Assembly (NCBI RefSeq): GCF_000485905.1
Contig: NC_022664.1
Coordinates: forward strand, 248,001 to 312,000
Length of the DNA stretch: 64,000 nt
Source of the DNA: Spiribacter curvatus
GTDB lineage: Bacteria > Pseudomonadota > Gammaproteobacteria > Nitrococcales > Nitrococcaceae
Direction of reading: 5' to 3'
Within the stretch, counting starts at the first letter, position 1. Each line of letters begins with the position of its first letter. Under the pieces are notes generated by a model. That model was not told the DNA's origin. It ran no database searches and saw nothing but the letters and a program-made list of their open reading frames with translations. The position numbers and the translations under genes were made by a program. This document shows positions 14,313 through 38,047 of the stretch, one piece after another.

Positions 14313-14960
14313 CTATCCCCCTGCTTGAAGCAGGATCGATTCGATTTCCTGATCGGCCATCTGCGCCCGGACGCCGTTGACTTGCTGGAGCTCGCTGAAC
14401 GGGCCGACGCGGACCCGGTGCCAGGTCTCACCGCCGGGTAGCTCAACGGCCTGTATGCGGGCCTGGATCCCCAGTAGGGCGAGTTTCGCCTTCAGCGAAT
14501 CGGCATCCGCCGCCTGACGGAAACTGCCGGCCTGGAGCAGGTAGCGTTTGCCCTCCTCGGATGCGGGTGCTGGATCGCTGTCGGGGGCCGGTTCCGTGGG
14601 GGACTCGGCCTCGGGTAGCGCCTGTGTCCCTGAGTCACTCGCCGGCGTCTCTTCCTCAGCGACTTCCACCTCCTGCTCGTTGAGCAGACGATAGAACTCG
14701 AATCGCGGCTGGTCAGATCCACCGGCCGTCGCGTTGTCACTATCGGCGGTGGTGGCCGTTTCGTCCGGTGCGGCCGTATCCGGCCGGCGATGCTCGAGAT
14801 GCACGACAAGCGCCACCATCAGCCCGATGGCGAGCCCGGTCACCCCCCATGCAAACGGCATCCGGCTGCTTTTAGCGCTATTGCCGGATCGGGTCTTCCG
14901 GCTCGCCTGACCACTGCTCTTGCGGGCCGGCGGTCTTGTCGTGTTGCGCTTCGCGGCCAT
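14313..14960 (-). CDS. SPOR-domain membrane protein (FtsN-like)
   Basis: A bitopic inner-membrane protein. A basic cytoplasmic tail (1-33) precedes one helix (about 35-54), an acidic low-complexity periplasmic linker (55-135), and a C-terminal SPOR domain (about 137-215) with YLLQAGSFRQAADADSLKAK, which binds denuded glycan strands at the division site. It is 2 bp after argS, and priA-argS-SPOR is the usual location of FtsN-like genes in pseudomonad-type genomes, where hslVU often follows; hslVU is absent here. FtsN assignment is by context and architecture; the essential FtsN region cannot be verified by eye. Confidence 0.8.
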   Translation of the reverse strand: MAAKRNTTRPPARKSSGQASRKTRSGNSAKSSRMPFAWGVTGLAIGLMVALVVHLEHRRPDTAAPDETATTADSDNATAGGSDQPRFEFYRLLNEQEVEVAEEETPASDSGTQALPEAESPTEPAPDSDPAPASEEGKRYLLQAGSFRQAADADSLKAKLALLGIQARIQAVELPGGETWHRVRVGPFSELQQVNGVRAQMADQEIESILLQAGG

Positions 14961-14962
14961 GC

Positions 14963-16723
14963 CTACATGCGTTCCGGTGCCGATACGCCGAGCAGCGCCA
15001 GACCATTGTGGATCACCTGCCGGACCGCCTGGATGAGCGTGAGCCGGGCGTCCCGTAGCGCCTCATCGTCCACCAGAAAGGTATGGGCGTTGTAGTAAGT
15101 GTGGAACGCGCCGGCCAGTTCGCGCAGGTAGGCCGCGAGCTGATGGGGTTCATGGCTGGCGGCGGCGGATTCCAGTACCTCGCTGTAGCGACCGAGCGAA
15201 TCGATCAGTGACTGCTCGTGATCGGCGGTCAGCCGTTCCAGTGCGGTAAGGCCCATGTCCCGGTCATGGTGCAGACCGCGCTCCTCGAGCTGTCGCAGTA
15301 CGCTGCAGACCCGGGCGTGAGCGTACTGGATGTAGTACACCGGATTGTCGTTGGACTGTGATTTCGCGAGCTCCAGATCGAAGTCCAGATGCTGTTCCGG
15401 GCGGCGCATGACGTAGAAGAATCGTGCCGCGTCATTGCCCACTTCCTCGCGCAGTGCGCGCAGTGTCACAAACTCGCCGGAGCGGGTCGACATCGGCAGT
15501 CGCTCGGATCCGCGGTAGAGAATCGCGAACTGCACCAGCCGGAACGTGAGCGCCTCGGGCGGATGGTCGAAGGCGGCGAGACTCGCCCGTACCCGAGCCA
15601 TATAGCCGTGGTGGTCGGCGCCGAATACGTCGATGGCATGGCTGAAACCGCGATCGAACTTATTCAGATGATAGGCGATGTCGGAGGCAAAGTAGGTCGT
15701 CTGGCCATCCGCACGCCGGACGACGCGGTCCTTGTCATCGCCATAATCGGTGGATCGGAACCACAGCGCACCGTCCGAATCATAGAGTTTGCCCGCCTCC
15801 TGAAGGCGCTCGAGTGCCTGCTCGACGGCACCGGTTTTCACCAATGCCCGCTCGCTGAACCATCGATCGTAGCGAACACCGAAGGCGGCGAGGTCCTCGT
15901 CGATGTCTCCGGTGATGGTGCTAACGGCGGCTTCAAGCACCTCTTGGTAACGGGTCTCACCCAGACAGGCGCGGGCCCGTTCGACCAGTGCGTCGATATG
16001 CGCTTCCTTATCGCCGCCGGCATTGGCATCCGCCGGTAGCCCGGTGGTGAGCTCGGCGGCAGTGATGCGGTAGCGCTCGCCGCCACTGGCCTCGAGATCG
16101 CGGGCAATGCCGTGAATGTAGTCGCCGCGATAGCCATTGGTTGGGAAATCGAGCGTCTCGCCGCGGTGTTCCAGATAACGAACCAGCACGCTCACCGCAA
16201 GGATATGCATCTGACGGCCGGCATCGTTGATGTAGTACTCGCGGTGGACGTCGTAGCCCGTGGCCGCGAGGATATCCGCCAGTGCCGCTCCGAACGCCGC
16301 TCCCCGACCGTGGCCGACATGCAGTGGGCCGGTCGGGTTGGCGGAGACGAACTCGACGATGACACGCTCGCCCTGACCGTGATGACTACACCCGTACTGA
16401 GCCCCCTCGCGATGGATGCGGGCGATCACCGCATTCGCGGCATCCTGCGTGAGAAAGAAATTGATAAACCCCGGGCCGGCTACCTCGACACGCTCGACAT
16501 GCGGGTGGATCGGTAGATGGCTGACCAGCTTTGCCGCCAGATCCCGGGGGCTCTGCCGCGCCGGCTTGGCAAGGCGCATGGCGACATTGCTCGCGTAGTC
16601 ACCGTGGCCGCTGCCACGGCCGCGCTCGAGCTGGATGTCGATCTGTTCTGGCAGGGATAGGGATTCGGCATCAGCCAACGAGCGAAGCGCCTGGCGCAAC
16701 AGATCGACAAGGTCTTGTTTCAT
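14963..16723 (-). CDS. argS: Arginine--tRNA ligase
   Basis: A class I aminoacyl-tRNA synthetase charging tRNA-Arg. The 586 residues carry the HIGH-type signature [17 protein letters not shown], the [13 protein letters not shown] segment in the KMSKS position (arginyl enzymes often lack a canonical KMSKS), and the C-terminal anticodon-binding helices ending in [11 protein letters not shown]. It lies between priA and the SPOR gene in one leftward operon. Its cognate tRNA-Arg(CCG) is at 5530-5606. Confidence 0.96.
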
Positions 16724-24970: not shown

Positions 24971-25039
24971 GAGTTGCCTCCGTTAATGGCCGAATCGGGC
25001 CACTGGCTGATTGCATTGATCGTCATTGTACGGGCCTGG

Positions 25040-25804
25040 CTACGCAAAGCGGGCGGCGACGGGTGTGTGATCCGACGGCCGCTCCCACGTGCGTGGATCA
25101 CGCTCGATGGTGCTGGACTGCAGGCTGGCCGTGATCGCCGGGCTGGTCAGGATCAGGTCGATCCGCAGGCCTCGGTTGCGTTTGAAGTTGTTCATTCGGT
25201 AGTCCCACCAGGAAAACGCCATCTCGGGCTGCTCGAAGGCACGGAAGCTGTCCGTGAAGCCGAGATCCAGCAGCCGCTGGAGTGCTTCGCGCTCGGGCGC
25301 CGAACAGAGAATCTGATCACGCCAGGCGTCGGGATCGTGGACATCGGCATCAGTCGGGGCAATGTTGAAGTCCCCCACCACGACGACCCGCTCGTGACGC
25401 TCGCATTCCGCGGCCAACCAGTCCCGGAGCTTTTTCAGCCAGTCGAGCTTGTACCCATATTTGTCACTGTCGACGGCCTTACCGTTCGGCACATAGAGAT
25501 TGATGAAGCGCACCCCATCCACCGTGACGCCCAGGACCCTTCGCTGTGGATCCTCGATGCCGGGCAGATCGGTGATGACGTCGCTGATTGGCGAGCGCGC
25601 CAGAACGGCAACGCCGTTGTAGGTCTTCTGCCCGGTGAAGACGACCTCATAGCCGGCCTCACGGATGGCCTGCCGGGGAAACTTCTCGTCGGTCAGCTTG
25701 GTTTCCTGCAATCCGAGGATGTCCGGTTGTGCCGATTCGAGCCATTCGAGCACGTGCGGCAGGCGGACATTCAGGGAGTTGACGTTCCAGGAGGCAACTT
25801 TCAC
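25040..25804 (-). CDS. xthA: Exodeoxyribonuclease III
   Basis: A DNA repair enzyme acting as an AP endonuclease and 3'-5' exonuclease. The 254-residue product starts at a GTG (25802-25804) giving VKVASWNVNSLNVRLP, the invariant ExoIII start. It contains LGLQETKLTDEKFP with the metal-binding Glu, VVVGDFNIAPTDADV, and the C-terminal WERPSDHTPVAARF with the catalytic Asp-His pair. The longer open frame upstream overlaps egtD and is rejected. A CCGGAG sequence precedes the GTG, and a TACAAT -10-like hexamer sits at 25843-25848 on the minus strand. Confidence 0.95.
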   Translation of the reverse strand: MKVASWNVNSLNVRLPHVLEWLESAQPDILGLQETKLTDEKFPRQAIREAGYEVVFTGQKTYNGVAVLARSPISDVITDLPGIEDPQRRVLGVTVDGVRFINLYVPNGKAVDSDKYGYKLDWLKKLRDWLAAECERHERVVVVGDFNIAPTDADVHDPDAWRDQILCSAPEREALQRLLDLGFTDSFRAFEQPEMAFSWWDYRMNNFKRNRGLRIDLILTSPAITASLQSSTIERDPRTWERPSDHTPVAARFA

Positions 25805-25883
25805 GGATGACGGCTCCGGTGGGGGTTTGCATGATGCGGCGAATTGTAACGGCTGCCGGTCTTCGGCGCAGTGCACAATGCCG

Positions 25884-26837
25884 TCATGGTTCACTCGCGT
25901 GCATGAGCAGGACCGCGAAACGCGCCTCGGCATCGGTCCAGTGCCCGCTGACCGACCAGCCCGCCTCGGCGGCGAGGGTGGTGAACGCCCCGATGTCGTA
26001 CTTCCGCGAGGTCTCGGTGTGCAGGCTCTCACCGGCCGTCAGCTCAAAACGCTCGCCTGCGACATGGACCGTGACCGCGCGCCTGCAGACCAGGTGCATC
26101 TCGATGCGGGCGGGCGCCTCGAAATAGCGGGCCTCGTGCCGGAAGTCATCCGGATCGAAATCGGCACCGAGCTCGCGATTGATACGCACCAGCAGGTTGC
26201 GGTTGAACGCCGCCGTCACGCCCTCGGGATCGTCGTAGGCAGGGATCAGGATATCGGCGGACTTGTCGAGGTCGATCCCCAGCAGAAACCTCGAATCCTG
26301 ACCCAGCAGTCCGCGGCAGTGCTGCAGCAGATGCCGCGCGTCCCCGGTCTCCAGGTTGCCGATGGTTGAACCGGGGAAAAAACCGAGCCGCGATGTGTGC
26401 TCGGGCAGATCCGCGGGCAGATCGAAGGCCTCGGTGAAGTCGGCGACCCAGGGATGCACGGGTAACCCGGGAAAACGGGCGCTGAGGGCATCGGCGGCCT
26501 CAGCGAGATAGTCCGCGGAGATATCAAGCGGCACATAGCCGGCCGGCTGGTGGAGCGCGTCGATCAGGGGAACGGTCTTGCGGCTCGATCCGCTGCCCAG
26601 TTCGACCAGCAGACTGCGCTCGGGGACCGCCGCCGCGATCGCCGGGAGGTGGGCCTCGAGGATGCCGATTTCCGTGCGTGTCGGGTAATAGCTGGGCAAT
26701 TGGGTAATGGCCTCGAACAGCGCGGAGCCGCGCTGGTCGTATAGCCACGCCGAGGGGATGCGGTGGGCCGGATCGCGCAGGGCGGCGAGCACGTCGTGCT
26801 GCAGTGTGTCGGTCATGGCGTGAACCCGTCCGTTCAT
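25884..26837 (-). CDS. egtD: L-histidine N-alpha-methyltransferase (hercynine synthase)
   Basis: EgtD adds three methyl groups from S-adenosylmethionine to the histidine amino group, giving hercynine, the acceptor for both ergothioneine and selenoneine synthesis. The 317 residues show SAWLYDQRGSALFEAITQLP, the methyltransferase loop VELGSGSSRKT (78-88), YVPLDISADYL, and GFFPGSTIGN (152-161), all typical of EgtD. The ATG overlaps the stop of the upstream permease gene as ATGA, so it is the last gene of the senA-transporter-egtD operon. A second ATG seven codons in (MTDTLQHD) is an alternative start. Its presence beside senA means hercynine supply is encoded within the cluster. Confidence 0.93.
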   Translation of the reverse strand: MNGRVHAMTDTLQHDVLAALRDPAHRIPSAWLYDQRGSALFEAITQLPSYYPTRTEIGILEAHLPAIAAAVPERSLLVELGSGSSRKTVPLIDALHQPAGYVPLDISADYLAEAADALSARFPGLPVHPWVADFTEAFDLPADLPEHTSRLGFFPGSTIGNLETGDARHLLQHCRGLLGQDSRFLLGIDLDKSADILIPAYDDPEGVTAAFNRNLLVRINRELGADFDPDDFRHEARYFEAPARIEMHLVCRRAVTVHVAGERFELTAGESLHTETSRKYDIGAFTTLAAEAGWSVSGHWTDAEARFAVLLMHASEP

Positions 26838-28354
26838 GGGGTGGGTGGTGTGGAGGCAGTGGGCGTCGTGCGCAGCTGCAGATGCCGGCGGATTCGCCTG
26901 GCAACGGCATCAACGGCAATATTGAGCAGCGCGGTGATGAGGATCAGCACCATGGCGCGGTCGAAGCGGAGCTCCTGAATGGCGCTGTCGACATAAAAGC
27001 CAAGCGTGGTGATGCCGAGGATGCCGAGGATGGCCGTCTCTCGCATGATGATCTCCCAGCGGTAGAACAGGAACGCAAGAAACGGTCGGTACAGCCTTGG
27101 CACCACCTCGTGGGTGTAGCGATCGAATCCGCCGACGGCATCCGGCCGGAGTGTGAGCTGATTGCTCTGACGACCGATCAGATGACCGATGATCGCGCCG
27201 TTATGGATCGCCAGCGCCGCCACTGCTGGCAGCATCGAGGGCCCCCAGAGCTGGAGCAGGATATAGGCCAGCAGATACTCCGGCGTCGAGCGGCCGATGA
27301 TCAGCAGGGCATTCCCGCCCCAGCGGGTGAATCGTCCGGCGAAAAGGCGCGAGATCAACGGAAAGCTGGCGAGCGCCAGCACGCCGGTCGCCACCAGCGC
27401 GATCTGGGTCAGCAGCAGTGTCGCCCCGATCCCCGGTAGCGCCTGATGGACAAGCAGCTCCCAGAGCCAGGGGCCCAGCCCGCTGAGTCCTTCACCGCTG
27501 CGCAGCGGTGCGGGCACGATATCCTGTGTGAAAAACCGCGTGGCGTTGCCCCAGACGATGGGCAGCCCATTACCGAGAAACCACGGTGCTGCGAGCAGGT
27601 AGAAAGGCACCAGCCGCGGCCGCACCCACAGTCGCAGACTGGCGATGAGGCCGAGGAAGATCAGCAGCAGCATCCCTACCTCGCCATACAGGCCCTCGCC
27701 GTAGGCGCTCTCGAGATAGAAGCCGAGCGTCGGCATGCCGACAAAACCGAGGATGGCGCTGGAGCGCATGCCGCATTCGAGCCGATAGCTCGTGTAGGTC
27801 ATCAGGTGGGGCCAGACATCCGGGACGCGCGCATACCAGAAGGTCGAGACCAGACCGCTGCCCGCCGGGAGCGAACGCGCGGGTCGTTCGTCGCCCTCCT
27901 CGAGTATCTCGCTGTAGACCCGTGCGAACACCGCCGCATAGGGCAGGGCGATCGCGAGGACACCGGTCAGTGGGTGGAGCCCGAAGAACTGCAGAAAGAT
28001 CAGCGCCCAGAATAGCTCATGGATGCCCCGGACGAACGCACAGGCACCACGCACGAAGCGACTGTGGAAAATCAGCGCCAGGCCCATGCCCAGAACCGCG
28101 GCCAGTCCGACGCCGGTGAAAGCGAATGTCACCGTGCGCAGCAGCGCCGTCGCTGCGGTATCCAGCGTACTGAAATCCGGTTGAACCAGCCCGCCGGCGA
28201 ACCGGCCAAGCTCGGCCCAGGGCGAGATTGATCGGATCTCGAAATCCGCCATGGCGGCACAGACCAGCGCAATGGCGACCAGCCACAGGCTCGTGCGCAC
28301 GGTAGGGGAGGACAGTGCGGAGCCCCCGCCGGGGCTGGGTTCAGTAAAGTGCAT
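26834..28354 (-). CDS. ABC transporter permease with two fused PhnE-like domains
   Basis: Inner-membrane part of a PhnCDE-type importer. At 506 residues it is about twice the usual PhnE length and holds two permease domains in tandem. The first covers about 30-270 (coupling-helix region VYSEILEEGDERPARSLP, then SSAILGFVGMPTLGFYLESA). The second covers about 285-490 (GGFDRYTHEVVPRLYRPF, then ETAILGILGITTLGFYVDSA). The parallel AILGFVG / AILGILG ends show an internal duplication or fusion. It overlaps the ATPase gene by 14 bp and egtD by 4 bp. Placement within the selenoneine operon suggests a selenium oxyanion as cargo; phosphonate, phosphite or hercynine-like molecules remain possible. Confidence 0.85.
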   Translation of the reverse strand: MHFTEPSPGGGSALSSPTVRTSLWLVAIALVCAAMADFEIRSISPWAELGRFAGGLVQPDFSTLDTAATALLRTVTFAFTGVGLAAVLGMGLALIFHSRFVRGACAFVRGIHELFWALIFLQFFGLHPLTGVLAIALPYAAVFARVYSEILEEGDERPARSLPAGSGLVSTFWYARVPDVWPHLMTYTSYRLECGMRSSAILGFVGMPTLGFYLESAYGEGLYGEVGMLLLIFLGLIASLRLWVRPRLVPFYLLAAPWFLGNGLPIVWGNATRFFTQDIVPAPLRSGEGLSGLGPWLWELLVHQALPGIGATLLLTQIALVATGVLALASFPLISRLFAGRFTRWGGNALLIIGRSTPEYLLAYILLQLWGPSMLPAVAALAIHNGAIIGHLIGRQSNQLTLRPDAVGGFDRYTHEVVPRLYRPFLAFLFYRWEIIMRETAILGILGITTLGFYVDSAIQELRFDRAMVLILITALLNIAVDAVARRIRRHLQLRTTPTASTPPTP

Positions 28355-28991
28355 CCAGCGCCTCGGTCTCGACCGTATCCGCCGGGCCGTCGAGAGCGAT
28401 CAAACCGTCGCGGATACCGACCAGGCGATCGGCATAGCGGCGGGCAAGCGGCAGGTCATGCATGGCGATCACGGCCGTTTCGTACTGCTCGGTCAGCGCC
28501 TCCATGACCCGCTCGGTGCGGGGTCCGTCCAGGGCCGAGACCGGCTCATCGGCGAGCAGGATGCTGCCGGCCTGGAACAGTGCCCGCGCGACCGCCACCC
28601 GTTGCCGCTGACCGCCGGATAGCTCACCGGTGCGCGCCCAGAGCGTCGGCGTCATGTCGAGCCGCTCCAGCACCGCTGTCACCGCCGCGACCTCGCGCCG
28701 GAACGGGCGGATCAGGTTGGCGAGGTTGTAGGCCGTCGAATGATGCCCGAGGCGCCCCATGTAGACGTTGTGGAAGACGCTCAGCGTGTCCACCAACCCC
28801 AGGTCCTGGGGCATCAGCGCGATGTCCGACCGCTCACGATCATGCAGGAGCGCGAGCAGCGTGGATTTGCCCGCGCCGCTGCGCCCCACCAGTGCCACTC
28901 GCTCGCCGGCGGCAATGTCGAGGTCAAGCGGGCCGAGCACCGATGCCCCGCCGTAGTCGGCCCGGGCGCCCCGGAGTGCGAGTGGGCTCAT
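28341..28991 (-). CDS. ABC transporter ATP-binding protein (PhnC-like)
   Basis: The ATPase that drives the adjoining importer. The 216 residues carry Walker A GRSGAGKSTLLALL, a Q-loop in SDIALMPQDLGLVDTLSVF, the ABC signature LSGGQRQRVAVARAL, and Walker B ILLADEPVSALDG. It is a little shorter than typical PhnC. Its ATG overlaps the stop of the binding-protein gene by one base, and its 3' end overlaps the permease gene, so translation is coupled across the transporter. Confidence 0.92.
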   Translation of the reverse strand: MSPLALRGARADYGGASVLGPLDLDIAAGERVALVGRSGAGKSTLLALLHDRERSDIALMPQDLGLVDTLSVFHNVYMGRLGHHSTAYNLANLIRPFRREVAAVTAVLERLDMTPTLWARTGELSGGQRQRVAVARALFQAGSILLADEPVSALDGPRTERVMEALTEQYETAVIAMHDLPLARRYADRLVGIRDGLIALDGPADTVETEALDALY

Positions 28992-29845
28992 CAGTCGATC
29001 AGACCGATCGCCCGTGCGGTCTGCTTCAGCCCCGCATAATCGTCGTTGGACACCGGCACGAAGCCGCTGCGCGGGAAGCGCTCGAGTAGATCAGGGTCAT
29101 CCATGGATAAAAGGGTGTCCTGCACCCGATCGACAAAACCGTCGCCAAAGCGCTCGTCGACGTCACCGCGGATGCTCCACTGATAGTTAAGATACCCCGG
29201 CGTTTCCCAGATCACCTCAACGGCGTCGGTATCAATGTTGCCGGCGGCGAGCTCACGCTCCCAGACCGCGTAATTCAGCGCCCCGACCTGATAGCTGCCG
29301 CTTTCCACCAGGCGCAGTGTGCGGCTGTGGTTGCCGCTGTAGCCGACCCGCTCGAAGATCTCGTCCGGGGCCTCGCCGAACTGGTCACGCAGATGGAATT
29401 CTGGCATCAGTCGGCCCGAGGTCGAACTCTTCGAGCCGAACGTGAATGTCCGGCCGCGCAGCGCCTCATCCAGGCTGTCACCCGGCATCAGTCCAGTGCT
29501 CTCGTGGGCGATGAAATAGGACTGAAAACCCTGATCCTCCTCACCGCGGGCCAGGGCCTGGGACCCCGGGACACGGGCGCGGGCCTGAACGCCCGAGAGG
29601 CCACCGAACCAGGCGAGCTGGACCTGGTTGTTACGAAAGGCGCTGACTGCAGCGGCATAGGACTTGACCGGGACATAGCGGACCTCGACGTCGAGTTCCT
29701 GTTCGAGGTACTCGCCCACGGCATTGAAGCGTGCTTCAAGTTTGCTCTCGTCCTGGTCAGGGATGGCAGTGAAGGTGAAGACCTGAGCCTGGGCCGGCAC
29801 GGCCGCGATCAGAGCGAGCAGGGCAAGCGGAGTCAAGAATCGCAT
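28991..29845 (-). CDS. Periplasmic substrate-binding protein, PhnD-like, putative selenate (selenium oxyanion) ABC transporter
   Basis: A secreted solute receptor of 284 residues. A signal peptide (MRFLTPLALLALIAAVPAQA) precedes the mature protein. The fold markers are those of the PhnD/phosphite family: FTFTAIPDQDESKLEARF, VRYVPVKSYAAAVSAFRNNQ, LAWFGGLSGVQAR and TFTFGSKSSTSGRLMPEFHL. A subfamily beside selD/glycosyltransferase genes is named putative selenate transporter in public annotation (from memory, unsearched). The same frame stays open far upstream, but that part is a shadow of senA; the ATG at 29845 has AAGGAAT before it and starts the signal peptide. It lies 25 bp after senA. The ligand itself is inferred from context. 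Confidence 0.85.
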   Translation of the reverse strand: MRFLTPLALLALIAAVPAQAQVFTFTAIPDQDESKLEARFNAVGEYLEQELDVEVRYVPVKSYAAAVSAFRNNQVQLAWFGGLSGVQARARVPGSQALARGEEDQGFQSYFIAHESTGLMPGDSLDEALRGRTFTFGSKSSTSGRLMPEFHLRDQFGEAPDEIFERVGYSGNHSRTLRLVESGSYQVGALNYAVWERELAAGNIDTDAVEVIWETPGYLNYQWSIRGDVDERFGDGFVDRVQDTLLSMDDPDLLERFPRSGFVPVSNDDYAGLKQTARAIGLID

Positions 29846-29870
29846 GGGGAATTCCTTTTTTAAGGGCTGT

Positions 29871-31190
29871 TCAGCGTGCGCAGGTCCGGAAACCGGCGAT
29901 GATGTCGTTGCGTCCCGGGGGGAAGAAATTGCGGGTGTTGTTGTTAAGGTGCCGTCGCCGGGTCGCCCAGCTGCCGCCGCGCAGGACATAGCGGCCATCC
30001 TTGAACCACGGCTCGGAGTAATCGGCGTATAGGTCGGCGCTGAAGCCCGGGTAGGGGCCGAAAGGCGAGGCCGTCCATTCCCAGACATTGCCCAGCATGT
30101 GCCGGCAGCCGAGGGCGCTGTCGCCGTTGGCAAGCGCCGCCACATCGACACCGCCCAGACGATAGCCATCGGTATTGGCATGCCGGCTGTCCCCGCTGGA
30201 ATCGCCCCACGGGTGAAGGCGTTTGCCGGGGGCGAGCCCCTCGTCGCCGGGGACCCGACTCGCAGCGACCTCCCACTCCACCTCGGTCGGCAGCCGTCGA
30301 CCGGCCCAACGGCAGTACGCCTCGGCCTCATGCCAGCTGACATGAGCGACCGGCGCGTGGGGCTGTAGCGGACGCCATTCGTCGAAATGCCGCACTTCCC
30401 AGCCCTCAGCGCCCGCTCGCCAGTAGACCGGCGCCTCGAGCTCGTTCGACTCGCGCCAGCGCCAACCCTCATCGGACCAGAAGGCGGGTTCCCGGTAACC
30501 GCCGGCCTCCACAAAGCGGGCGAAGGCCGCGCCGGTGACCGGCGCGCGGGCAATCTTGAAGGGCGCAACCGTGACCGTATGGGACTGTTTTTCATTGTCG
30601 AAGCGAAACGGCACCTGCTCATCGGCGCCCAGCACGTGGGTGCCGCCGGGGATCTCAACATCACCGTCCAGCGGGCCCTCATCGATGGCGGATAGAGGCA
30701 CGGGCGGCATGATGACGGGGGCTGGATCCGCCAGCGTCTGGCGTGTGTAGGCAAAGGCCTCGCCATGCATGTCCTCGTGGAAGACGGCGAGCTGCCAGAC
30801 ATAGCTCGTGACGGCATCCGCCATTCCCTGTGGCAGTCGGTCAACCATCTCCGCACGGACCTGACGCAGGTAGGCGAGGGTGTCGTCCATCGTCGGCAGT
30901 GCCAGATCCCAGCGATCGTCGTGGGCGACGCCCATCGAGTCATAGATCCGTTCGGCATCGGCGATCTGATAGTGGGGCAGGCCGTGGCGGTGATGGAGGA
31001 AGAAGTGATCGTAGAAAAACCCGACGTGGCCGATCTCCCACTGCGGCGGGTTGACGATGCTAAGCTTCGGCCCGAGCCGGCGTTCGGCGGGCAGGTCACC
31101 GGTGAGTTCCAGGGTCCGCTGCCGGGCGTCATCAAGCATGGCAATCAGGGTTTCGGAGGCGACAGGATGAGTGGGCGGCGTCTGGATCAT
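29871..31190 (-). CDS. senA: Selenoneine synthase SenA (EgtB-like, DinB + formylglycine-type domains)
   Basis: A nonheme-iron enzyme that joins hercynine to a selenosugar with O2, leading to selenoneine. The 439 residues have an N-terminal DinB-like domain (about 10-150) and a C-terminal FGE/sulfatase-modifying domain (about 175-436: RLPTEVEWEVAASRVPGDEG, GNVWEWTASPFGPYPGFSAD, RGGSWATRRRHLNNNTRNFF). The iron triad of the EgtB family is present: His55 in WEIGHVGFF, and His138/His142 in the HEDMHGE motif (HxxxHxE). By sequence alone EgtB and SenA are hard to separate; the SenA call rests on its divergent senB partner, nearby senC/selD and the absence of egtA/egtC/egtE in the window. It leads the operon senA, binding protein, ATPase, permease, egtD. 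Confidence 0.82.
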   Translation of the reverse strand: MIQTPPTHPVASETLIAMLDDARQRTLELTGDLPAERRLGPKLSIVNPPQWEIGHVGFFYDHFFLHHRHGLPHYQIADAERIYDSMGVAHDDRWDLALPTMDDTLAYLRQVRAEMVDRLPQGMADAVTSYVWQLAVFHEDMHGEAFAYTRQTLADPAPVIMPPVPLSAIDEGPLDGDVEIPGGTHVLGADEQVPFRFDNEKQSHTVTVAPFKIARAPVTGAAFARFVEAGGYREPAFWSDEGWRWRESNELEAPVYWRAGAEGWEVRHFDEWRPLQPHAPVAHVSWHEAEAYCRWAGRRLPTEVEWEVAASRVPGDEGLAPGKRLHPWGDSSGDSRHANTDGYRLGGVDVAALANGDSALGCRHMLGNVWEWTASPFGPYPGFSADLYADYSEPWFKDGRYVLRGGSWATRRRHLNNNTRNFFPPGRNDIIAGFRTCAR

Positions 31191-31216
31191 CGAGATCTCC
31201 TTGTCGGCGGAATGCT

Positions 31217-32182
31217 ATGAGGATCGGGTTGGTCACCCCGGCGGCTCCACGGTCGCGGGCGGGCAATCGGGCCACTGCCACGCGCTGGGCGCGACTGCTG
31301 CGTACGGCCGGGCATCAGGTAAGCGTGCTCGAGCAATGGCGGCCCGGCGATACCGGGTTCGACGTCATGCTCGCGCTCCACGCCTGGCGCAGCGCCCCGA
31401 GCATTACCGCCTTCGCCGAGCAATATCCCGAGCGGGCGCTGATGGTCGTACTGACCGGCACCGACATCTACCAGTTCCAGCACAGTGATCCGGCGGTCAC
31501 CGTCGCCAGTCTCGACCGGGCGGATGGGCTCATCGGTCTGCATGATCATGTTGGCCGGGATATTCCCGCCCGTTTTCATGCCATTCTGCACACGGTGCAC
31601 CAGTCGGCGACGCCCCTCCCGACGAGTGACCGCGGTCCGGTCCGTCGCCGTTTCGAGCTCTGTGTGGTCGGCCATCTGCGCGACGAAAAGGATAGCCTGC
31701 GAGCGGCGCTGGCCGCACGCAGCCTGCCCGTCGGATCCCGGGTCCACGTCCTGCAGGCCGGTCGTGCCCATACGCCGGACTGGGCCGCGGCTGCAGAGGC
31801 GGAAATGGCGGCCAACCCGCGCTACACCTGGTATGGCGAGATCGGCCAGGGCGCGATCCGACGCCTCTACGCCCGCAGTCGAGCCATGGTCATGAGCTCG
31901 GTGATGGAGGGCGGTGCGAATGTCGTCTCCGAGGCCTGTGTCGCGGGCCTGCCGATCCTCGCCAGTCGCATTCCGGGTAATACCGGACTGCTCGGCGACC
32001 ACTATCCCGGACTCTATCCGGCCAGGGACACCGCTGCACTGAGCCAGCTGATGCGCCGTATCGAGCACGAGCCCGACTACCTCGCCATGCTCGCGGCGCA
32101 TTGCCGGGCACTTGCTCCACGCTTTACGCCCGAGGCCGAACGCACCGCCCTGTTGCGGGCGATCACCAGCGTCACGGGTTGA
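31217..32182 (+). CDS. senB: Selenosugar synthase SenB (GT4-like glycosyltransferase)
   Basis: SenB uses selenophosphate and a UDP-sugar (UDP-GlcNAc in the described system) to make the selenosugar that SenA consumes. The 321-residue product has a two-Rossmann GT-B layout: MRIGLVTPAAPRSRAGNRAT at the start, LHAWRSAPSI, VLTGTDIYQFQ (78-88), FELCVVGHLRDEKD at the domain hinge, and the EX7E motif EGGANVVSE (Glu231, Glu239) followed by AGLPILASRIPGNTGLLG. These match the putative glycosyltransferase family that accompanies selD. It is divergent from senA with 26 bp between the ATGs and converges on senC with an 11-bp overlap of coding ends. Confidence 0.85.
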   Translation: MRIGLVTPAAPRSRAGNRATATRWARLLRTAGHQVSVLEQWRPGDTGFDVMLALHAWRSAPSITAFAEQYPERALMVVLTGTDIYQFQHSDPAVTVASLDRADGLIGLHDHVGRDIPARFHAILHTVHQSATPLPTSDRGPVRRRFELCVVGHLRDEKDSLRAALAARSLPVGSRVHVLQAGRAHTPDWAAAAEAEMAANPRYTWYGEIGQGAIRRLYARSRAMVMSSVMEGGANVVSEACVAGLPILASRIPGNTGLLGDHYPGLYPARDTAALSQLMRRIEHEPDYLAMLAAHCRALAPRFTPEAERTALLRAITSVTG

Positions 32183-34451
32183 GCTGAATCGGTTCAAGCG
32201 CGTCGCCCTGTGCATCGACATGGCCGATGATCGCCGTGTGGTGATAGCCGAGCGCCTTGAGTTCACTCACGCAGGCCTCCGCCTGATCGGCGGGGATACT
32301 CGCCAGCAGGCCGCCAGCGGTCTGCGGATCGAAGACCAGCGGATAGCGGGGGTGATCGGTCATCGCTTCGGCATGACGGATGGCCCGCCGCAGCCGGACG
32401 TTGGCGGGCTGCAATGAACTGAGGATGCCGGCGGCGACGGTCTCCTCGGCGCCCTCGAGGACTGGCAGCGCGGAGAGCTCGAGGGTGGCATCCACCGCCG
32501 ATGGCCTTGTCATTTCCACCAGATGGCCGAGCAGCCCGAAACCAGTGAGGTCGGTGCAGGCGTTGGCGCCACGCCGGTGGAGGCACTCGGCGGCCAGGCG
32601 ATTGGAGTGGCGCATCGACTGCAGCGCCTCGTCGATCCACTGACCCCGGGTGGCGAGGCGGGCATGGGCAGCGAACAGCGTGCCGGTGCCGATCGGTTTG
32701 GTGAGCACGAGCACGTCGCCAGCCTGCATACCGCCTTTGCGCATGATCCGGCCCGGCTCATCATCGATGAGTCCGTTGATCGCGAACCCCAGAGCGAGCT
32801 CGCGCCCTTCCCCGGTATGGCCGCCGACAAGGGCGCAGCCGGCGTCGTTGAGGATGTCGAGGGCCCCCGCCATCAGCTGATAGACGGTGTCTTCGACCTT
32901 CGCCTCGAGGCCCTGTGGGACCGTGGCGATCGCGGTGGCGGTCTGCGCCTCGGCGCCCATGGCGAAGATATCGCCGAGCGCATGATTGGCAGCCACCTGA
33001 CCAAAGACATAGGGGTCGTCGACGAACGCCCGGAAGAAATCAACGGTATGCACCATCGCCTTACCCGGAGGGACGCGCACGACGGCCGCATCATCCGGGG
33101 CATGCAGGCCGATCAGCACATCCTCGCGCTCGACGGGTTGCAGGGCGCCCAGCGCGTTCGACAGCGTTGAGGCCCCGACCTTGGCGCCGCAACCGCCGCA
33201 GCGCATCGCGACCGCCGAAATCGCCTGGCGGGCTTCCTCGCCCTCCAGCGGCACGCGCGAGCGCGGTCCCGTCGAGCCGCTCTCCTCCATGGCGGGCAGG
33301 TCATTGAAGCGGGCCATGAAGCGGCGATCGATCCAGTCCTTGTAGCGCCAGAGCGCCCGGCCCTCGGCACCGAACGGTCCGCGCGACGCCACCGCGTACT
33401 GATCGCCAGTGCTGATCAGGGCGAGCCAGTGGCGTTGGGGTCGATAGGGAATGGGCTCGCGGTCCACCAGCGATAGTCGCAGGTTGCGGGCAAGCGGGGG
33501 TCCCTGGCGCACGGCAAAGACACCTGCTTTCTCGCGCGGGTGATTGACCATGCTGGCGACATCGCCGGCGGCGAATATATCGGGATCGGTAACGGTCTGC
33601 AGGGTATCGGTGACCTGGATAAAGCCGCTGTCGTCCAGCGCCAGTCCCGTATCCCGCAGCCAGTCAGCCCCCCCCGCCCGGGTCACCCAGACCACTTCGT
33701 CGGCCGCATGGTGCTGGCCATCAAGGGTGCTCAATCCGGTGGCGTCCACCCCCGTAACCTCAGCATTGCAGTGGACGGCGATACCGCGCTCGGCGAGGAC
33801 CCGAGCGAACCGCTCGCGGACGTTCGGGGCATGCGTGGGCAGTACCGATCCGCCGCGCGTGAACAGCGTGAAAGCGAGGAGATCCGGGTCATAGCCCAGC
33901 GCCTGCAGCTCGTTGCGCAGCCGGTGGTGCATGGCGAGCAGCAGTTCGACCCCACCCGCACCGCCACCCACCACGGCGATACGCATGGGGCCCGGGTTCG
34001 TGCGCACCCGCTCAAGCAGCGCCAGCCAGCGATCGTTGAAGCGGTGGATCGGCTTGACGGCAACGGCGTGATCCGCCGCACCACCGGCATCGGCGACCCG
34101 GGGGGTCGAGCCGATATTGATTGACAGCCGATCGTAGGGGACGGCGGGACGGTCGCTACACAGGACGCGATGTCCCTCGCGATCCACGCCAGTCGCCTCA
34201 GTGCGGAAGAATCGGGCACCCGCAAATTCGGCCAGACGGCGCAGATCGATGTGGACATCGTCGTAGCTGTAATGCCCCGCCACATAGCCCGGGAGCATAC
34301 CCGAGTAGGGCGTGTGGGTGTCGCGGCAGATCAGCGTCAGGCGCACGCCGGGTACCGGCTTCATGCCAAAGCGCCGCAGTACCCCGACATGGCTGTGACC
34401 GCCGCCGACGAGGATGATGTCCCGGAGGACGGGTTGCGTGGAATCCTGCAT
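32172..34451 (-). CDS. senC: SenC: selenophosphate synthase (SelD) fused to an N-terminal FAD/NAD(P) oxidoreductase
   Basis: A 759-residue fusion. Residues 1-385 are a pyridine-nucleotide-disulfide/NDH-2-type oxidoreductase with FAD loop DIILVGGGHSHVGVLRRFG (11-29), NAD loop IAVVGGGAGGVELLLAM (158-174) and second FAD motif TDPDIFAAGDVASM. Residues about 410-759 are SelD, which makes selenophosphate from selenide and ATP: the active loop RCGGCGAKVG has Cys421 and Lys424 in the positions of the essential Cys17/Lys20 of E. coli SelD, with the non-essential second Cys replaced by Ala. ALVGGHTGEGRELALGF and CTDLTGFGLLGHL are also typical. The ATG at 34451 begins the conserved FAD domain. It lies 11 bp after prlC and is probably co-transcribed with it. 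Fused SelD of this form is known; its redox role is unproven. Confidence 0.88.
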   Translation of the reverse strand: MQDSTQPVLRDIILVGGGHSHVGVLRRFGMKPVPGVRLTLICRDTHTPYSGMLPGYVAGHYSYDDVHIDLRRLAEFAGARFFRTEATGVDREGHRVLCSDRPAVPYDRLSINIGSTPRVADAGGAADHAVAVKPIHRFNDRWLALLERVRTNPGPMRIAVVGGGAGGVELLLAMHHRLRNELQALGYDPDLLAFTLFTRGGSVLPTHAPNVRERFARVLAERGIAVHCNAEVTGVDATGLSTLDGQHHAADEVVWVTRAGGADWLRDTGLALDDSGFIQVTDTLQTVTDPDIFAAGDVASMVNHPREKAGVFAVRQGPPLARNLRLSLVDREPIPYRPQRHWLALISTGDQYAVASRGPFGAEGRALWRYKDWIDRRFMARFNDLPAMEESGSTGPRSRVPLEGEEARQAISAVAMRCGGCGAKVGASTLSNALGALQPVEREDVLIGLHAPDDAAVVRVPPGKAMVHTVDFFRAFVDDPYVFGQVAANHALGDIFAMGAEAQTATAIATVPQGLEAKVEDTVYQLMAGALDILNDAGCALVGGHTGEGRELALGFAINGLIDDEPGRIMRKGGMQAGDVLVLTKPIGTGTLFAAHARLATRGQWIDEALQSMRHSNRLAAECLHRRGANACTDLTGFGLLGHLVEMTRPSAVDATLELSALPVLEGAEETVAAGILSSLQPANVRLRRAIRHAEAMTDHPRYPLVFDPQTAGGLLASIPADQAEACVSELKALGYHHTAIIGHVDAQGDALEPIQLNP

Positions 34452-34462
34452 GTCGTCCTCGC

Positions 34463-36502
34463 TCAGGCGGCCAGGCCGCTCGCCTTTAGAAGGGGCTCGA
34501 TGCTCGGCTCGCGACCGCGGAAGTGGCTGAACAGTGTCGCCGCATCCTCTGATCCGCCGCGCTCGAGGATGTTCTCGAGAAACGAACGGCCGGTGACCGG
34601 GTTGAATATCCCCTCTTCGGTAAACCGCGCGAAGGCATCGGCGGAGAGGACTTCTGCCCACTTATAGCTGTAGTAGCCCGCTGCGTAGCCGCCGGCGAAG
34701 ATATGCGCGAAGCTGTTGGGGAAACGGTTGAACGCCGGCGGCTGCAGAACCGCGACCTGATCGCGGACCGCTCCGAGCAGTTCGAGGATCCGTTCGCCCT
34801 GATGACGGTCATGCTCGACGTGCAAGCGCAGATCGAACAGCGAGAACTCCAGCTGGCGGACCATCTGCATGGCGGCCTGGAAGTTTCGGGCCGCGGTCAT
34901 GCGCTGGAACAGCGCCTCGGGGATCGGCTCATTGGTCTCGTGATGGCGCGCGAACAGATCCAGCGCCTCCCGTTCCCAGCACCAGTTCTCAAGGAACTGG
35001 CTGGGGAGTTCGACGGCATCCCAGGCGACTCCGTTAATGCCGGCGACGCTCGCCGCATCCACCTGGGTGAGCATGTGATGGAGGCCGTGACCGAACTCAT
35101 GGAAAAGGGTTTCCACCTCGCCATGCGTGATCAGGGCCGGCTGATCGCCGACTGGCGGCGTAAAGTTGCAGGTGAGAAACGCCACCGGTGTCTGCGCCAC
35201 GTCGTGATGCCGCATGCGGCCACGGGCGGTTGCCATCCAGGCCCCGCCGCGCTTGTGCGATCGCGCGTAGAGATCGGTGTAGAACTGACCGCGCAGGGCA
35301 CCGTTGGCGTCGTGGATCTCGTAGAAGCGGACATCGGCGTGCCAGGTGTCGACATCCTCGCGCTCGGCGATATGGATGCCGAACAGTCGTTCCACTACCG
35401 CAAACAGACCGGCCATGACTCGATCAGCCTGAAACCAGGGCCGCAGATCCTCGGGCGAGAGCTCGAATCGGGCCTCTCGCAGACGCTCGCTGTAATAGCC
35501 CACATCCCAGGCCTGAAGTGACTCCAGACCATCGCGATCGTGGGCAAAGGCCTGGAGCGTCGCATACTCCTGTTCCGCCACTGGATGCGCCCGCCGCGCC
35601 AGATCCTCGAGGAACCCGACGACCTGTGCGGCGGAATCAGCCATTTTGGGGGCAAGCGATAGCTCGGCGTAATCGCTGAAGCCCAGCAGCTCTGCCTGTT
35701 CCTGACGCAGATCGAGGATCTCGGCCATGACCGGGTGATTGTCCCACTGGCCCGCCTGCGGGCCGGTATCCGACGCCCGTGTGGTGAAGGCTTCATAGAC
35801 GCGATAGCGCAGGTCACGGTTGCTGGCGTGGGCCAGCACTGCCTGGACGATGGGCATATCGAGGCTGATCCGCCATCCGCTGATACCAGCCTGTTCGGCT
35901 TTCTGTTTCATGACGCCCAGTGCTGACGCGGGAATGCCGTCGAGGTCATCGGCCGCGTCCGTGTCCCAGGTCCAGGCGTCACTGGCATCCAGCAGGTTTT
36001 CCTGGAATCGCGCCGATAGCGCCGTGAGCCGGGCGGATATCTCCGCGTAGCGGGTCTTCGCCGCATCCTCCAGGGCGACGCCGGAGCGCTCGAAATCGCG
36101 CAGCGCATTGTCGACGGTCTGGCGCTGATCGACCGTCATCCGCTCGTGGGCCTCGCTGTCGCGCAGTGTCCGAAACGCTTCATAGAGCGCCGTGTTCTGG
36201 CCCATCTCGGTCTGGTAGGCGGATAGGGCGGGCAGGCAGGCATTATAGGCCTCGCGCAGCGCCTCACTGTTCATGACGGCGTTGAGGTGCGAGACCGGTG
36301 ACCAGACCTTCTCGAGCCGGTCCTCGAGTCGCTCGAGGGGCGCGACCAGACTGTCCCAGTCGTGGTGGAGCGATGGCGCGGTCAACTCATCGATCGCCGC
36401 GCGATTGTCGGCAAGGACCTGGTCGACGGCGGGTTTGATGTGTTCGGGGCGGATCTCGGAGAAACGGGGCAGCCCGTCGGTTTCCAGCAGTGGATTGGTC
36501 AT
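34463..36502 (-). CDS. prlC: Oligopeptidase A (M3 family metallopeptidase)
   Basis: A cytoplasmic zinc peptidase that degrades signal peptides and short oligopeptides. The 679 residues carry the active-site motif LFHEFGHGLHHMLTQ (HEFGH) in the catalytic domain, with GINGVAWDAVELPSQFLENW downstream supplying the third zinc ligand, and the C-terminal YYSYKWAEVLSADAFARF typical of PrlC/OpdA. The start MTNPLLETDGLPRFSEIRPEH matches the family. It is divergent from gorA and 11 bp upstream of senC, so the senC mRNA probably starts at the prlC promoter. Confidence 0.95.
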   Translation of the reverse strand: MTNPLLETDGLPRFSEIRPEHIKPAVDQVLADNRAAIDELTAPSLHHDWDSLVAPLERLEDRLEKVWSPVSHLNAVMNSEALREAYNACLPALSAYQTEMGQNTALYEAFRTLRDSEAHERMTVDQRQTVDNALRDFERSGVALEDAAKTRYAEISARLTALSARFQENLLDASDAWTWDTDAADDLDGIPASALGVMKQKAEQAGISGWRISLDMPIVQAVLAHASNRDLRYRVYEAFTTRASDTGPQAGQWDNHPVMAEILDLRQEQAELLGFSDYAELSLAPKMADSAAQVVGFLEDLARRAHPVAEQEYATLQAFAHDRDGLESLQAWDVGYYSERLREARFELSPEDLRPWFQADRVMAGLFAVVERLFGIHIAEREDVDTWHADVRFYEIHDANGALRGQFYTDLYARSHKRGGAWMATARGRMRHHDVAQTPVAFLTCNFTPPVGDQPALITHGEVETLFHEFGHGLHHMLTQVDAASVAGINGVAWDAVELPSQFLENWCWEREALDLFARHHETNEPIPEALFQRMTAARNFQAAMQMVRQLEFSLFDLRLHVEHDRHQGERILELLGAVRDQVAVLQPPAFNRFPNSFAHIFAGGYAAGYYSYKWAEVLSADAFARFTEEGIFNPVTGRSFLENILERGGSEDAATLFSHFRGREPSIEPLLKASGLAA

Positions 36503-36682
36503 GGTGCTCCAGTGATCGGACAGGTTAGCGCTTAGGGCTCATCCTCTAGGGTAGCCCGCGGACATGTTTGTTTCGAGCGCAGCAACGCCGATCAGTTCGC
36601 CCTGGATCGATCGGCGTGACTGTCATTCTCGTGCCGATCTGTGAAAATGGTGGCTTATAGGAACGGATATCAGGAGTCCACC

Positions 36683-38047
36683 ATGACCGATAGCGACCAC
36701 GCCTATGATCTTATCTGCATCGGCGGCGGCAGCGGCGGCATCGCCACCGCCCGGCGTGCCGCGGCGCACGGCGCGCGCTGCGCCGTCATCGAGGCATCGC
36801 GTCTGGGCGGGACCTGCGTGAATGTGGGCTGTGTTCCCAAAAAGGTCATGTGGCAGGCCGCCCACAGCCGCGAGGTCATGGCACGGGCCGGCGATTATGG
36901 CTTCAGCGGCGTTGCTCCGACGCTCGACTGGGGCGCGTTGGTGAGCGCGCGGGATGCCTACATTGAGCGGCTCAATGGCATCTATGACCGTAATCTCGAT
37001 AAGTCTGGGGTTGATCTGATCACCGGGCATGCGCATTTCATCGATCCGCATACCGTCGTGGTGGACGGCCAGCATTACCGAGCGGCGCGTTTCGTGATCG
37101 CAACCGGCGGCACTCCGGGTCGGCCGGGGATCCCGGGCGGCGACCTGGGCATCGACTCCGATGGTTTCTTCGAGATGACCGATCGCCCGGAAAAAGTCGC
37201 GGTGGTCGGAGCCGGTTACATTGCCGTGGAACTGGCAGGCGTCCTGCACCAGCTGGGCAGCGATGTGGAGCTGGTGATCCGGCGTGAGAAGCCGCTGCGC
37301 GGCTTTGATACAGCGATTCAGGATGCCTACGTCGAAGCGATCGGTGCGCATGGTCCAACGCTTGTGAATCATTTCACTCCAGCCGGCCTCGAGGCGGCAT
37401 GGGGCGGTTATTCGCTGCATGGCACTGATGGTCGCTCGCTGGAAGGGCTCGATCAGGTGATCTGGGCTGTCGGTCGGTTACCCAATACCGATGAGCTGGG
37501 GCTCGAGGCCGCTGGCGTCGACATCGATGAATCCGGGACGATCCCGGTCGATGCCTGGCAGGCCAGCAACCAACCGCATATCTTCGCGCTCGGTGATGTG
37601 ACCGATAATCCCTATCCGCTGACACCGGTGGCGATTGCGGCGGGGCGGCGGCTCGCGGACCGGGTCTGGGGGGGAGAGGCCGACCGGCATCTCGAGTATC
37701 GTGATGTCCCTACCGTGGTGTTCACGCATCCGCCCATTGGCAGCGTGGGTCTGACCGAGGCCGATGCCCGGGCCGTCCATGGTGATGCGGTCCAGGTCTA
37801 TGAGACCCGCTTTGTCCCTATGGATTTCGCCCTGGCCCCGGCAGAGGCCAAGCAGCGCAGCACCATGAAGTTGGTCTGCGTGGGCGCGGAAGAGCGGGTT
37901 GTCGGCGTTCATCTGTTCGGCGTCGGCAGCGACGAGATGCTGCAGGGATTCGCCGTGGCGGTCCGCATGGGCGCGACCAAGCAGGATCTCGACGAGACGG
38001 TGGCCATTCATCCCACCAGTGCTGAGGAACTGGTCACCATGACCTGA
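36683..38047 (+). CDS. gorA: Glutathione-disulfide reductase
   Basis: An FAD enzyme that reduces oxidised glutathione with NADPH. The 454 residues contain [19 protein letters not shown], the redox disulfide [16 protein letters not shown], an NADP-binding loop [18 protein letters not shown] with Arg residues after it ([12 protein letters not shown]), the FAD motif [19 protein letters not shown], and the C-terminal active-site [11 protein letters not shown]. The ATG at 36683 follows CAGGAG; a longer open frame begins upstream but lacks homology. A gamma-carbonic anhydrase gene follows 18 bp downstream. Its neighbourhood with senC is noted because glutathione reduces selenite to selenide. Confidence 0.93.

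Follow-up and report, generated by a model that had tools for sequence, protein, structure and literature searches.

Selenoneine synthesis has been described for the senABC cluster of Variovorax paradoxus DSM 30034 (see PMC9814287, PMC10702425, and PMC10891094). Here we analyse a stretch of 64,000 nucleotides from the Spiribacter curvatus genome (NC_022664.1, positions 248,001 to 312,000; the window), in which an 8.6-kb block (window 25884-34451) encodes EgtD, a PhnDCE-like importer, SenA, SenB, and an NDH-SelD fusion. The block is like the Variovorax cluster in combining SenA and SenB with a selenophosphate synthetase, in its predicted chemistry, and in its catalytic residues. Judged from its sequence, it belongs to the known sen type of selenoneine locus, with a hercynine synthase and an importer added, and it very probably constitutes a self-contained selenoneine pathway that includes selenium import. 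The pathway is based on family scores, active-site residues, the finding of no other users of selenophosphate or hercynine among the families searched, the joint absence of the genes in relatives, and the co-occurrence of importer and SelD. The individual reactions are assigned by analogy with characterised homologues; the ligand of the importer, the reductant, and the product are likewise predicted.

In the pathway that we propose, the TIGR04553/PhnD1-type periplasmic protein would bind an oxyanion of selenium, selenite being the likeliest, for import by the PhnC/PhnE-like ABC transporter. In the cytoplasm, selenite would be reduced to selenide by glutathione, perhaps with the help of the flavoprotein half of the fusion, and the SelD half would make selenophosphate. 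SenB would join the selenium to a UDP-sugar, EgtD would convert histidine to hercynine by trimethylation, and SenA, with iron and oxygen, would put the selenium on hercynine to give selenoneine. A first-pass annotation of this DNA had already read the genes from uptake to carbon–selenium bond formation as one system. The present results support that reading, and the family of the binding protein, TIGR04553, is already named 'putative selenate ABC transporter' (substrate-binding protein) in NCBIfam. The features of the block and its flanks are given below, with family matches judged against the curated NCBIfam bit-score cut-offs.

34463..36502, minus strand: flank, prlC (oligopeptidase A), the fixed upstream neighbour (NF008159, 925.5 bits, just under the cut-off of 927; Pfam Peptidase_M3)
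32172..34451, minus strand: NDH-SelD fusion (predicted SenC role), an N-terminal NDH-2/SQR-like flavoprotein domain plus selenophosphate synthetase (TIGR03169, TIGR00476)
31217..32182, plus strand: SenB, predicted selenosugar synthase, divergent from senA (TIGR04348; alignment to the solved SenB 8k5u)
31191..31216, no strand: senA/senB gap of 26 bp between the divergent start codons, holding the senA ribosome-binding site
29871..31190, minus strand: SenA, predicted selenoneine synthase (non-haem iron) (NF041186; tree; SenA-type residues)
28991..29845 (frame open from 29866), minus strand: periplasmic binding protein of the candidate selenium importer (TIGR04553; ribosome-binding site and signal-peptide-like N-terminus; model)
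28341..28991, minus strand: PhnC-like ABC ATPase of the candidate importer (Pfam ABC_tran, 81 bits; TIGR02315)
26834..28354, minus strand: permease of the candidate importer, two PhnE-like halves in one polypeptide (TIGR01097 in two stretches)
25884..26837, minus strand: EgtD, predicted histidine N-alpha-methyltransferase for hercynine supply (TIGR03438)
25040..25810, minus strand: flank, exonuclease III-like gene, the fixed downstream neighbour (position and neighbour comparison; named from its sequence, without a family search)

The open frames of all the named genes are intact and lie where the first-pass annotation had placed them; the block, which it had put at about 9 kb, begins and ends at its coordinates. 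The PhnDCE-like transporter that it had noticed consists of a TIGR04553 binding protein, a PhnC-like ATPase, and a double-PhnE permease.

SenA scores 502 bits against NF041186 (cut-off 420) and 331 bits against the EgtB family TIGR03440, which is under the cut-off of 360. The iron triad that had been read at first pass in an EgtB-like protein is present. Residues H55, H138, and H142 are presumably the iron ligands, by analogy with EgtB, and E144 completes the HX3HXE motif. In PDB searches, OvsA 8ux5 (294 bits with a single sequence, 564 bits with a profile) outranks the solved SenA 8k5i (237 and 456 bits), which we take to be the V. paradoxus enzyme. OvsA (PDB 8u41 and 8ux5) is a selenoxide synthase that we assume acts in ovoselenol synthesis. 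Because the nearest solved homologue is OvsA, the SenA assignment needed a test of its own, with the OvsA reading to be excluded; were the enzyme that forms the carbon–selenium bond an OvsA, the block would make ovoselenol or another selenohistidine.

A tree was built by a quick method from 76 of 137 collected rows, including two long rows (L042 and L050). The window SenA falls in a 12-row clade (starred support of 100). Eight EgtB-like proteins of relatives, which are SenA-profile matches under the cut-off and have egtD next door in all cases except L012, fall outside the SenA/OvsA group together with the solved EgtB 4x8b. The separation of SenA from EgtB that the first-pass annotation had anticipated is thus seen in this tree. 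A true EgtB, with ergothioneine as the product, would suit the TIGR03440 match and the presence of egtD in the same block, but the protein lies under the EgtB cut-off, over the SenA cut-off, and apart from the EgtB-like rows, and its block holds SenB and SelD (EgtA, EgtC, and EgtE were not searched for); we regard this explanation as extremely unlikely.

In the same tree, OvsA forms a separate six-row clade (starred support of 100) with the second copy of genome G018 and proteins of G265, G162, L071, and L076. The solved SenA 8k5i sits in a further, more basal clade; therefore, SenA overall is not one clade that excludes OvsA. Residues were compared in 27 rows. Of the 25 positions at which OvsA differs from the 8k5i clade, the window protein is SenA-like at 13, OvsA-like at 7, and neither at 5. 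In particular, it carries E139, D140, A145, Y391, N421, and F422, where the six natural OvsA-clade rows carry Q, N or H, S, M, Q, and A, respectively. At the last three of these positions 8ux5, unlike 8u41, carries the SenA-type letters, and 8ux5 is presumably an engineered OvsA.

The NF041186 score does not by itself exclude OvsA. Proteins of G162, G229, and G265 (L039, L040, and L038) pass the cut-off with 434.9-440.5 bits though their residues are OvsA-type, and L038 and L039 also fall in the OvsA clade, so that annotated SenA genes may include ovoselenol enzymes. The three genomes, first counted as SenA genomes, are regarded as selenium users and not as selenoneine producers on account of these residues; the window assignment is independent of the phylum matches to NF041186. 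Against the ranking of 8ux5 and this permissiveness of the profile stand the separate OvsA clade, the six SenA-type residues of the window protein, and an egtD in the block that would make hercynine, for which no other user was found. An OvsA in the window is very unlikely; that the window enzyme is SenA, neither EgtB nor OvsA, is well supported, as are the predicted identities of the block's enzymes.

Other genomes hold further combinations. In G018, a SenA-type enzyme and one of OvsA type are encoded some 10 kb from each other (L190:2757-4076 and 14565-15890). A six-row SenA-like clade (L071, L076, L082, L083, L093, and L095) belongs to the same 13-row group as OvsA, and SenB was not found in its available flanks, which are short in L071 and L083. 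In L071 (75, 1485) and L076 (6200, 4783), the SenA-like copy without SenB stands in tandem with an OvsA-type copy. L046 (G337) and L047 (G428) are second SenA-like copies, in which Arg replaces the third iron-ligand histidine (H142 in the window).

The divergent GT4-like gene of the selD-associated family, as the first-pass annotation had described it, is identified as SenB by family score, not by a SenB tree (TIGR04348, 387 bits; cut-off 300). In an alignment with the solved SenB 8k5u (residues 3-317), N20, T23, H58, R61, T83, T85, R155, K158, and the EGGA motif are kept; the exception is H235, which is Asn. These positions are taken from the list of selenophosphate-pocket and catalytic residues in the available part of PMC10891094. 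The fusion scores 502.5 bits against TIGR03169 (cut-off 310) and 296 bits against the selD family TIGR00476 (cut-off 125). Residues Cys421 and Lys424 align with Cys17 and Lys20 of the solved SelD 3u0o, which we take to be catalytic. SenA, SenB, and SelD, the three proteins for which a profile check had been suggested at first pass, all lie over their cut-offs, and so does EgtD (TIGR03438, 373.5 bits; cut-off 290.9).

The genome (G000), probably that of a Spiribacter-like halophile, is a single contig of 1,926,631 bases with one SenA-profile match, one EgtD (E 1e-50), one SelD, and one TIGR04553 protein. The SenA profile also finds EgtB-like and OvoA-like proteins elsewhere and stood in for a direct search for EgtB and OvoA. 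SelA and MnmH gave no match in the genome at E 1e-30; therefore, selenoneine is the sole selenophosphate sink found (tRNA-Sec, SelB, and selenium-dependent molybdenum hydroxylases were not searched for). Hercynine and selenophosphate have one user each among the families searched. The genome is thus a case in which an antioxidant small molecule would be the only detected use of selenophosphate, and selenoneine-only use would account for some SelD genes that occur without SelA or MnmH.

In a sample of relatives comprising 95 genomes including this one, SenA is over the cut-off in ten. EgtD is present in all ten, and neither SelA nor MnmH was found in seven. The egtD gene lies within the block in five (the window, G001, G004, G005, and G017) and elsewhere in G018, G026, and G035; the sen contigs of G029 and G051, of 3,155 and 3,962 bases, are too short for linkage to be told. 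A second SenA-profile match is present in G018, G026 (partial), G029, and G035, and absent from the five genomes with linked egtD and from G051 (82% complete).

Within the genus (14 genomes), SenA, TIGR04553, SelD, and EgtD are all present in four genomes (G000, G001, G004, and G005), and all four families were unfound in the other ten, five of which are 74-87% complete. In the four genomes and in G017, from another genus, the block lies between prlC and the exonuclease III-like gene. Both flanks could be read together in nine of the ten genomes that lack the block (G007 gave no exonuclease III match). In G002, G006, and G009, some 80-110 bp separate the two flanking genes. In G003, G008, G010, G011, G012, and G013, the interval holds only an intact stand-alone NDH domain. 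In a tree of NDH domains, the stand-alone and fused proteins of the genus cluster together (starred support of 100/99 for the genus; 88/86, not starred, for the stand-alone set), and the fused copy of G017 falls outside. The simplest history would be an ancestral block that was lost except for its NDH half, followed by loss of the NDH half too. A chance figure calculated for the shared presence pattern of the four families ignores kinship and was not used; the NDH tree fits one loss. The stand-alone genes (L178, L180, and L182-L185, from G003, G008, and G010-G013) occur where SelD and SenA were not found, which suggests that the NDH protein may have a role of its own, apart from selenium.

We next consider how common the extended set is. 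The loci named here are the best 80 of 566 from the SenA-profile search and lean towards the window's own kind of SenA; 34 of the 80 extend 8 kb or more on each side of SenA, so that counts over the whole set are minimum values. At least 62 of the 80 have SenB no more than 5 kb away, accompanied by SelD in at least 21, EgtD in at least 15, and the transporter trio in at least 12. Among the 34 well-flanked loci, SenB is found in 28, with SelD in 12, EgtD in 10, and the trio in 10. Of the 18 loci without SenB, one (L105) has the binding protein. SenA, SenB, SelD, the trio, and EgtD occur together in four of the 28 well-flanked sen loci, namely L051 (Halomonas jincaotanensis), L052 (a metagenome-assembled genome, MAG, of Ectothiorhodospiraceae), L073 (a Gammaproteobacteria MAG), and L103 (a Gemmatimonadaceae MAG). 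Each has the full set of the window in one locus; gene order and orientation differ from those in the window, and the SelD of L103 has low similarity (37%) and no NDH match, unlike the window fusion. The recurrence of the extended set in differing gene orders, in Proteobacteria and one Gemmatimonadaceae MAG, supports a functional tie between the genes and makes the window less unique. The claim made at first pass that the set is fuller than a minimal three-gene cluster stands as to egtD and the importer; the set is not peculiar to this organism.

The binding protein scores 420.1 bits against TIGR04553 (cut-off 250), and the transporter stays under the cut-offs of the phosphonate families: PhnD (126.9 against 261.1), PhnC (TIGR02315, 164.4 against 266.1), and PhnE (TIGR01097, 201.5 against 216.7). 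In the sample of relatives, TIGR04553 is over the cut-off in 11 of 95 genomes, comprising all ten SenA genomes and one of the other 85, G091, where MnmH and SelD are present and no SenA passes the cut-off. In a phylum sample of 398 genomes, TIGR04553 is found in 34. SelD is present in 32 of these 34 compared with 97 of the other 364 (Fisher p 3.7e-15) and, counted by genus, in 21 of 22 importer genera compared with a background of 87 of 213 (p 2e-8). MnmH is present in 30 of the 33 importer genomes besides G000. Of the 32 genomes that have both, 14 (from 10 genera) carry the importer gene no more than 10 kb from selD, and divergent importer-selD neighbours occur among G146, G298, G362, G462, G469, and G477, genomes with no SenA over the cut-off. 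Of the 11 phylum genomes whose NF041186 score passes the cut-off, 7 carry the importer, compared with 27 of the other 387 (p 5e-6); the count of 11 in 398 is a lower bound, since in many genomes scoring covered no more than four candidates. This co-occurrence indicates that TIGR04553 tracks selenium use at large; in G000 the use that it tracks is selenoneine. For ten importer regions lacking selD nearby, the neighbouring genes were listed with no family search, and no claim is made from them; L200 gave no importer match by the method used.

Among the paper titles listed for TIGR04553 and bacterial selenium import, we saw no study of the ligand of this family; PMC13077682 lists such a gene and guesses selenite export. 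As read here, the block is of interest mainly because it would link the TIGR04553 transporters with selenium closely enough to justify measuring what they bind.

Among solved structures, the binding protein has its closest relatives in PhnD1 of Synechococcus MITS9220 (7s6g) and of Prochlorococcus MIT9301 (5lq5). An AlphaFold model of the window protein (mean pLDDT 90.1) finds the same relatives (Z 34.8-35.6), followed by PtxB (30.6). The aligned parts of the two PhnD1 chains are themselves over the TIGR04553 cut-off of 250, with 335.6 and 302.7 bits. In a tree of 63 binding proteins rooted on PtxB, PhnD1 is sister to L110, the binding protein of a senAB locus (starred support of 98/84), and both lie inside a 37-row clade (starred support of 100/99). 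Of the rows in this clade, 26 bear a selenium-linked label and nine have SelD elsewhere. Near-copies from 19 loci, L195-L204, G112, G234, G266, and G362 were left out of this tree, whose output warns of long branches joining; the branch of Prochlorococcus is a long one. The selenium-linked label of L072 rests only on nearby sen genes, its binding protein being of a distant type, and L105 carries the label without SenB nearby.

Nine of the ten compared pocket positions of the Prochlorococcus protein (Pm_PhnD) are unchanged in the window: among them are Y46, S126, T127, S128, H158, the cap residue Y206, and its partners D13 and N176, with ligand residues, cap, and partners taken from the available part of PMC5700983. 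The remaining position, D205, is Asn in the window. Among 77 matches, near-copies included, it is Asp in 55, Asn in 21, and Gln in one. The change of D205 to Asn was considered as a switch from protonated phosphorus oxyanions to selenium oxyanions and dropped as a diagnostic, since 55 of the 77 keep Asp, many of them beside sen or selD. The small oxyanion pocket also bears on the idea that the importer takes up hercynine, ergothioneine, or selenoneine instead of selenium, which its place in an operon-like string with histidine-betaine genes might suggest. With these pocket residues all kept, TIGR04553 present in 27 phylum genomes where no SenA match passes the cut-off, and egtD to supply hercynine internally, uptake of a histidine betaine is hardly credible.

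Several observations weigh against the pathway with selenium import that we propose. As regards the enzymes, the SenA clade of the window is nearer to OvsA than to the solved SenA 8k5i in the tree, we know of no tested member of this clade, and the fusion matches TIGR04369, an NCBIfam fusion family described as 'not SelD', with 456 bits, under the cut-off of 700. As regards the importer, no SelD was found in two of the 34 importer genomes (G234 and G354, the latter 78% complete), SelD occurs widely in the phylum sample (129 of 398), importer and selD are not within 10 kb of each other in 18 of the 32 genomes that have both, and four of the 11 phylum genomes over the NF041186 cut-off have no importer. 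In addition, PhnD1 (PDB 5LQ5, 5LQ8, and 7S6G) has been published as a phosphite-binding and probably phosphate-transporting protein, unlike the selenium reading of the window protein; the available parts of PMC10284923 and PMC5700983 report binding of phosphite, phosphate, and methylphosphonate. According to what is available of PMC10284923, phosphite is bound more tightly than phosphate or methylphosphonate, the protein was crystallised with phosphate, and, in the introduction, phnD1CE of Synechococcus WH8102 is induced by low phosphorus, which speaks for a phosphorus role.

These data on PhnD1, with the nine unchanged pocket positions, the match to PF12974, and the PhnDCE homology of the transporter, favour an importer of phosphite, phosphate, or phosphonate that is in the block by chance or supplies phosphorus. 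Against such an importer are the scores under the PhnD, PhnC, and PhnE cut-offs, the way in which the importer tracks SelD, SenA, and MnmH across genomes and adjoins selD where no SenA is over the cut-off, and the genus, in which the ten genomes where SelD, SenA, and EgtD were not found gave no importer either. We consider a phosphorus importer unlikely and retain selenium import.

Selenite has three oxygens, and its lone pair takes the place of the P-H of phosphite, so that it could plausibly mimic phosphite; selenate, the ligand named by NCBIfam, would resemble phosphate. The available part of PMC10284923 also states that PhnD1 is present in all 97 picocyanobacterial genomes of one database, that it seems to require three oxygens in a trigonal arrangement, that two strains are unable to use phosphite or methylphosphonate, and that the ligands tried were phosphorus compounds and commercial cocktails. 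The string 'selen' does not occur in the main text of either PMC10284923 or PMC5700983. For Prochlorococcus marinus and Synechococcus, PMC1273633 describes a SelD homologue with an NDH extension that stands apart from other SelD; it also reports ybbB in cyanobacteria. We propose, as an idea with even chances of being right or wrong, that TIGR04553 proteins and their PhnC/PhnE partners are the dedicated high-affinity selenite importers of bacteria for whichever sink (selenouridine, selenoneine, or ovoselenol), with the window importer serving selenoneine alone. Picocyanobacterial PhnD1, a core gene with a paradoxical role, would be included, and its phosphite binding would reflect selenite mimicry. 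If PhnD1 belongs to this group, abundant marine photosynthetic bacteria would own a dedicated selenium importer that has been described until now as a phosphorus transporter. The block, together with the behaviour of the importer family across genomes, provides a specific candidate that one binding experiment could test.

Among the genes of the block, senB alone is on the plus strand, amid a string of minus-strand genes. It starts 26 bp from the senA start, and its end overlaps the fusion gene by 11 bp; divergent senB-senA pairs are seen again in many loci. The fusion gene is spaced 11 bp from prlC, and senA lies 25 bp from the ATG of the binding-protein gene. This ATG, at 29845, has AAAAAGGA upstream and a signal-peptide-like start after it, within a frame that itself opens at 29866. 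Short overlaps join the genes for the binding protein, ATPase, permease, and EgtD, and the exonuclease III-like gene lies about 73 bp beyond the block end by its coordinates. A scan of 25000-36600 with a sigma-70 consensus gave no promoter-like site, shuffled sequences giving 1.5 on average. Terminator-like sites numbered 10, compared with 5.1 expected; every one lies within a gene and on the minus strand, and they were set aside. Beyond prlC, window 36641-38047 (plus strand) carries what we take to be a glutathione reductase-like gene, named from its motif without a family search; glutathione could serve as reductant for imported selenite.

Set beside the V. paradoxus cluster, the locus of the window differs in three respects. 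SelD is fused to an NDH-like domain, the block includes egtD and a three-gene ABC importer, and its SenA belongs to another clade than the solved SenA 8k5i.

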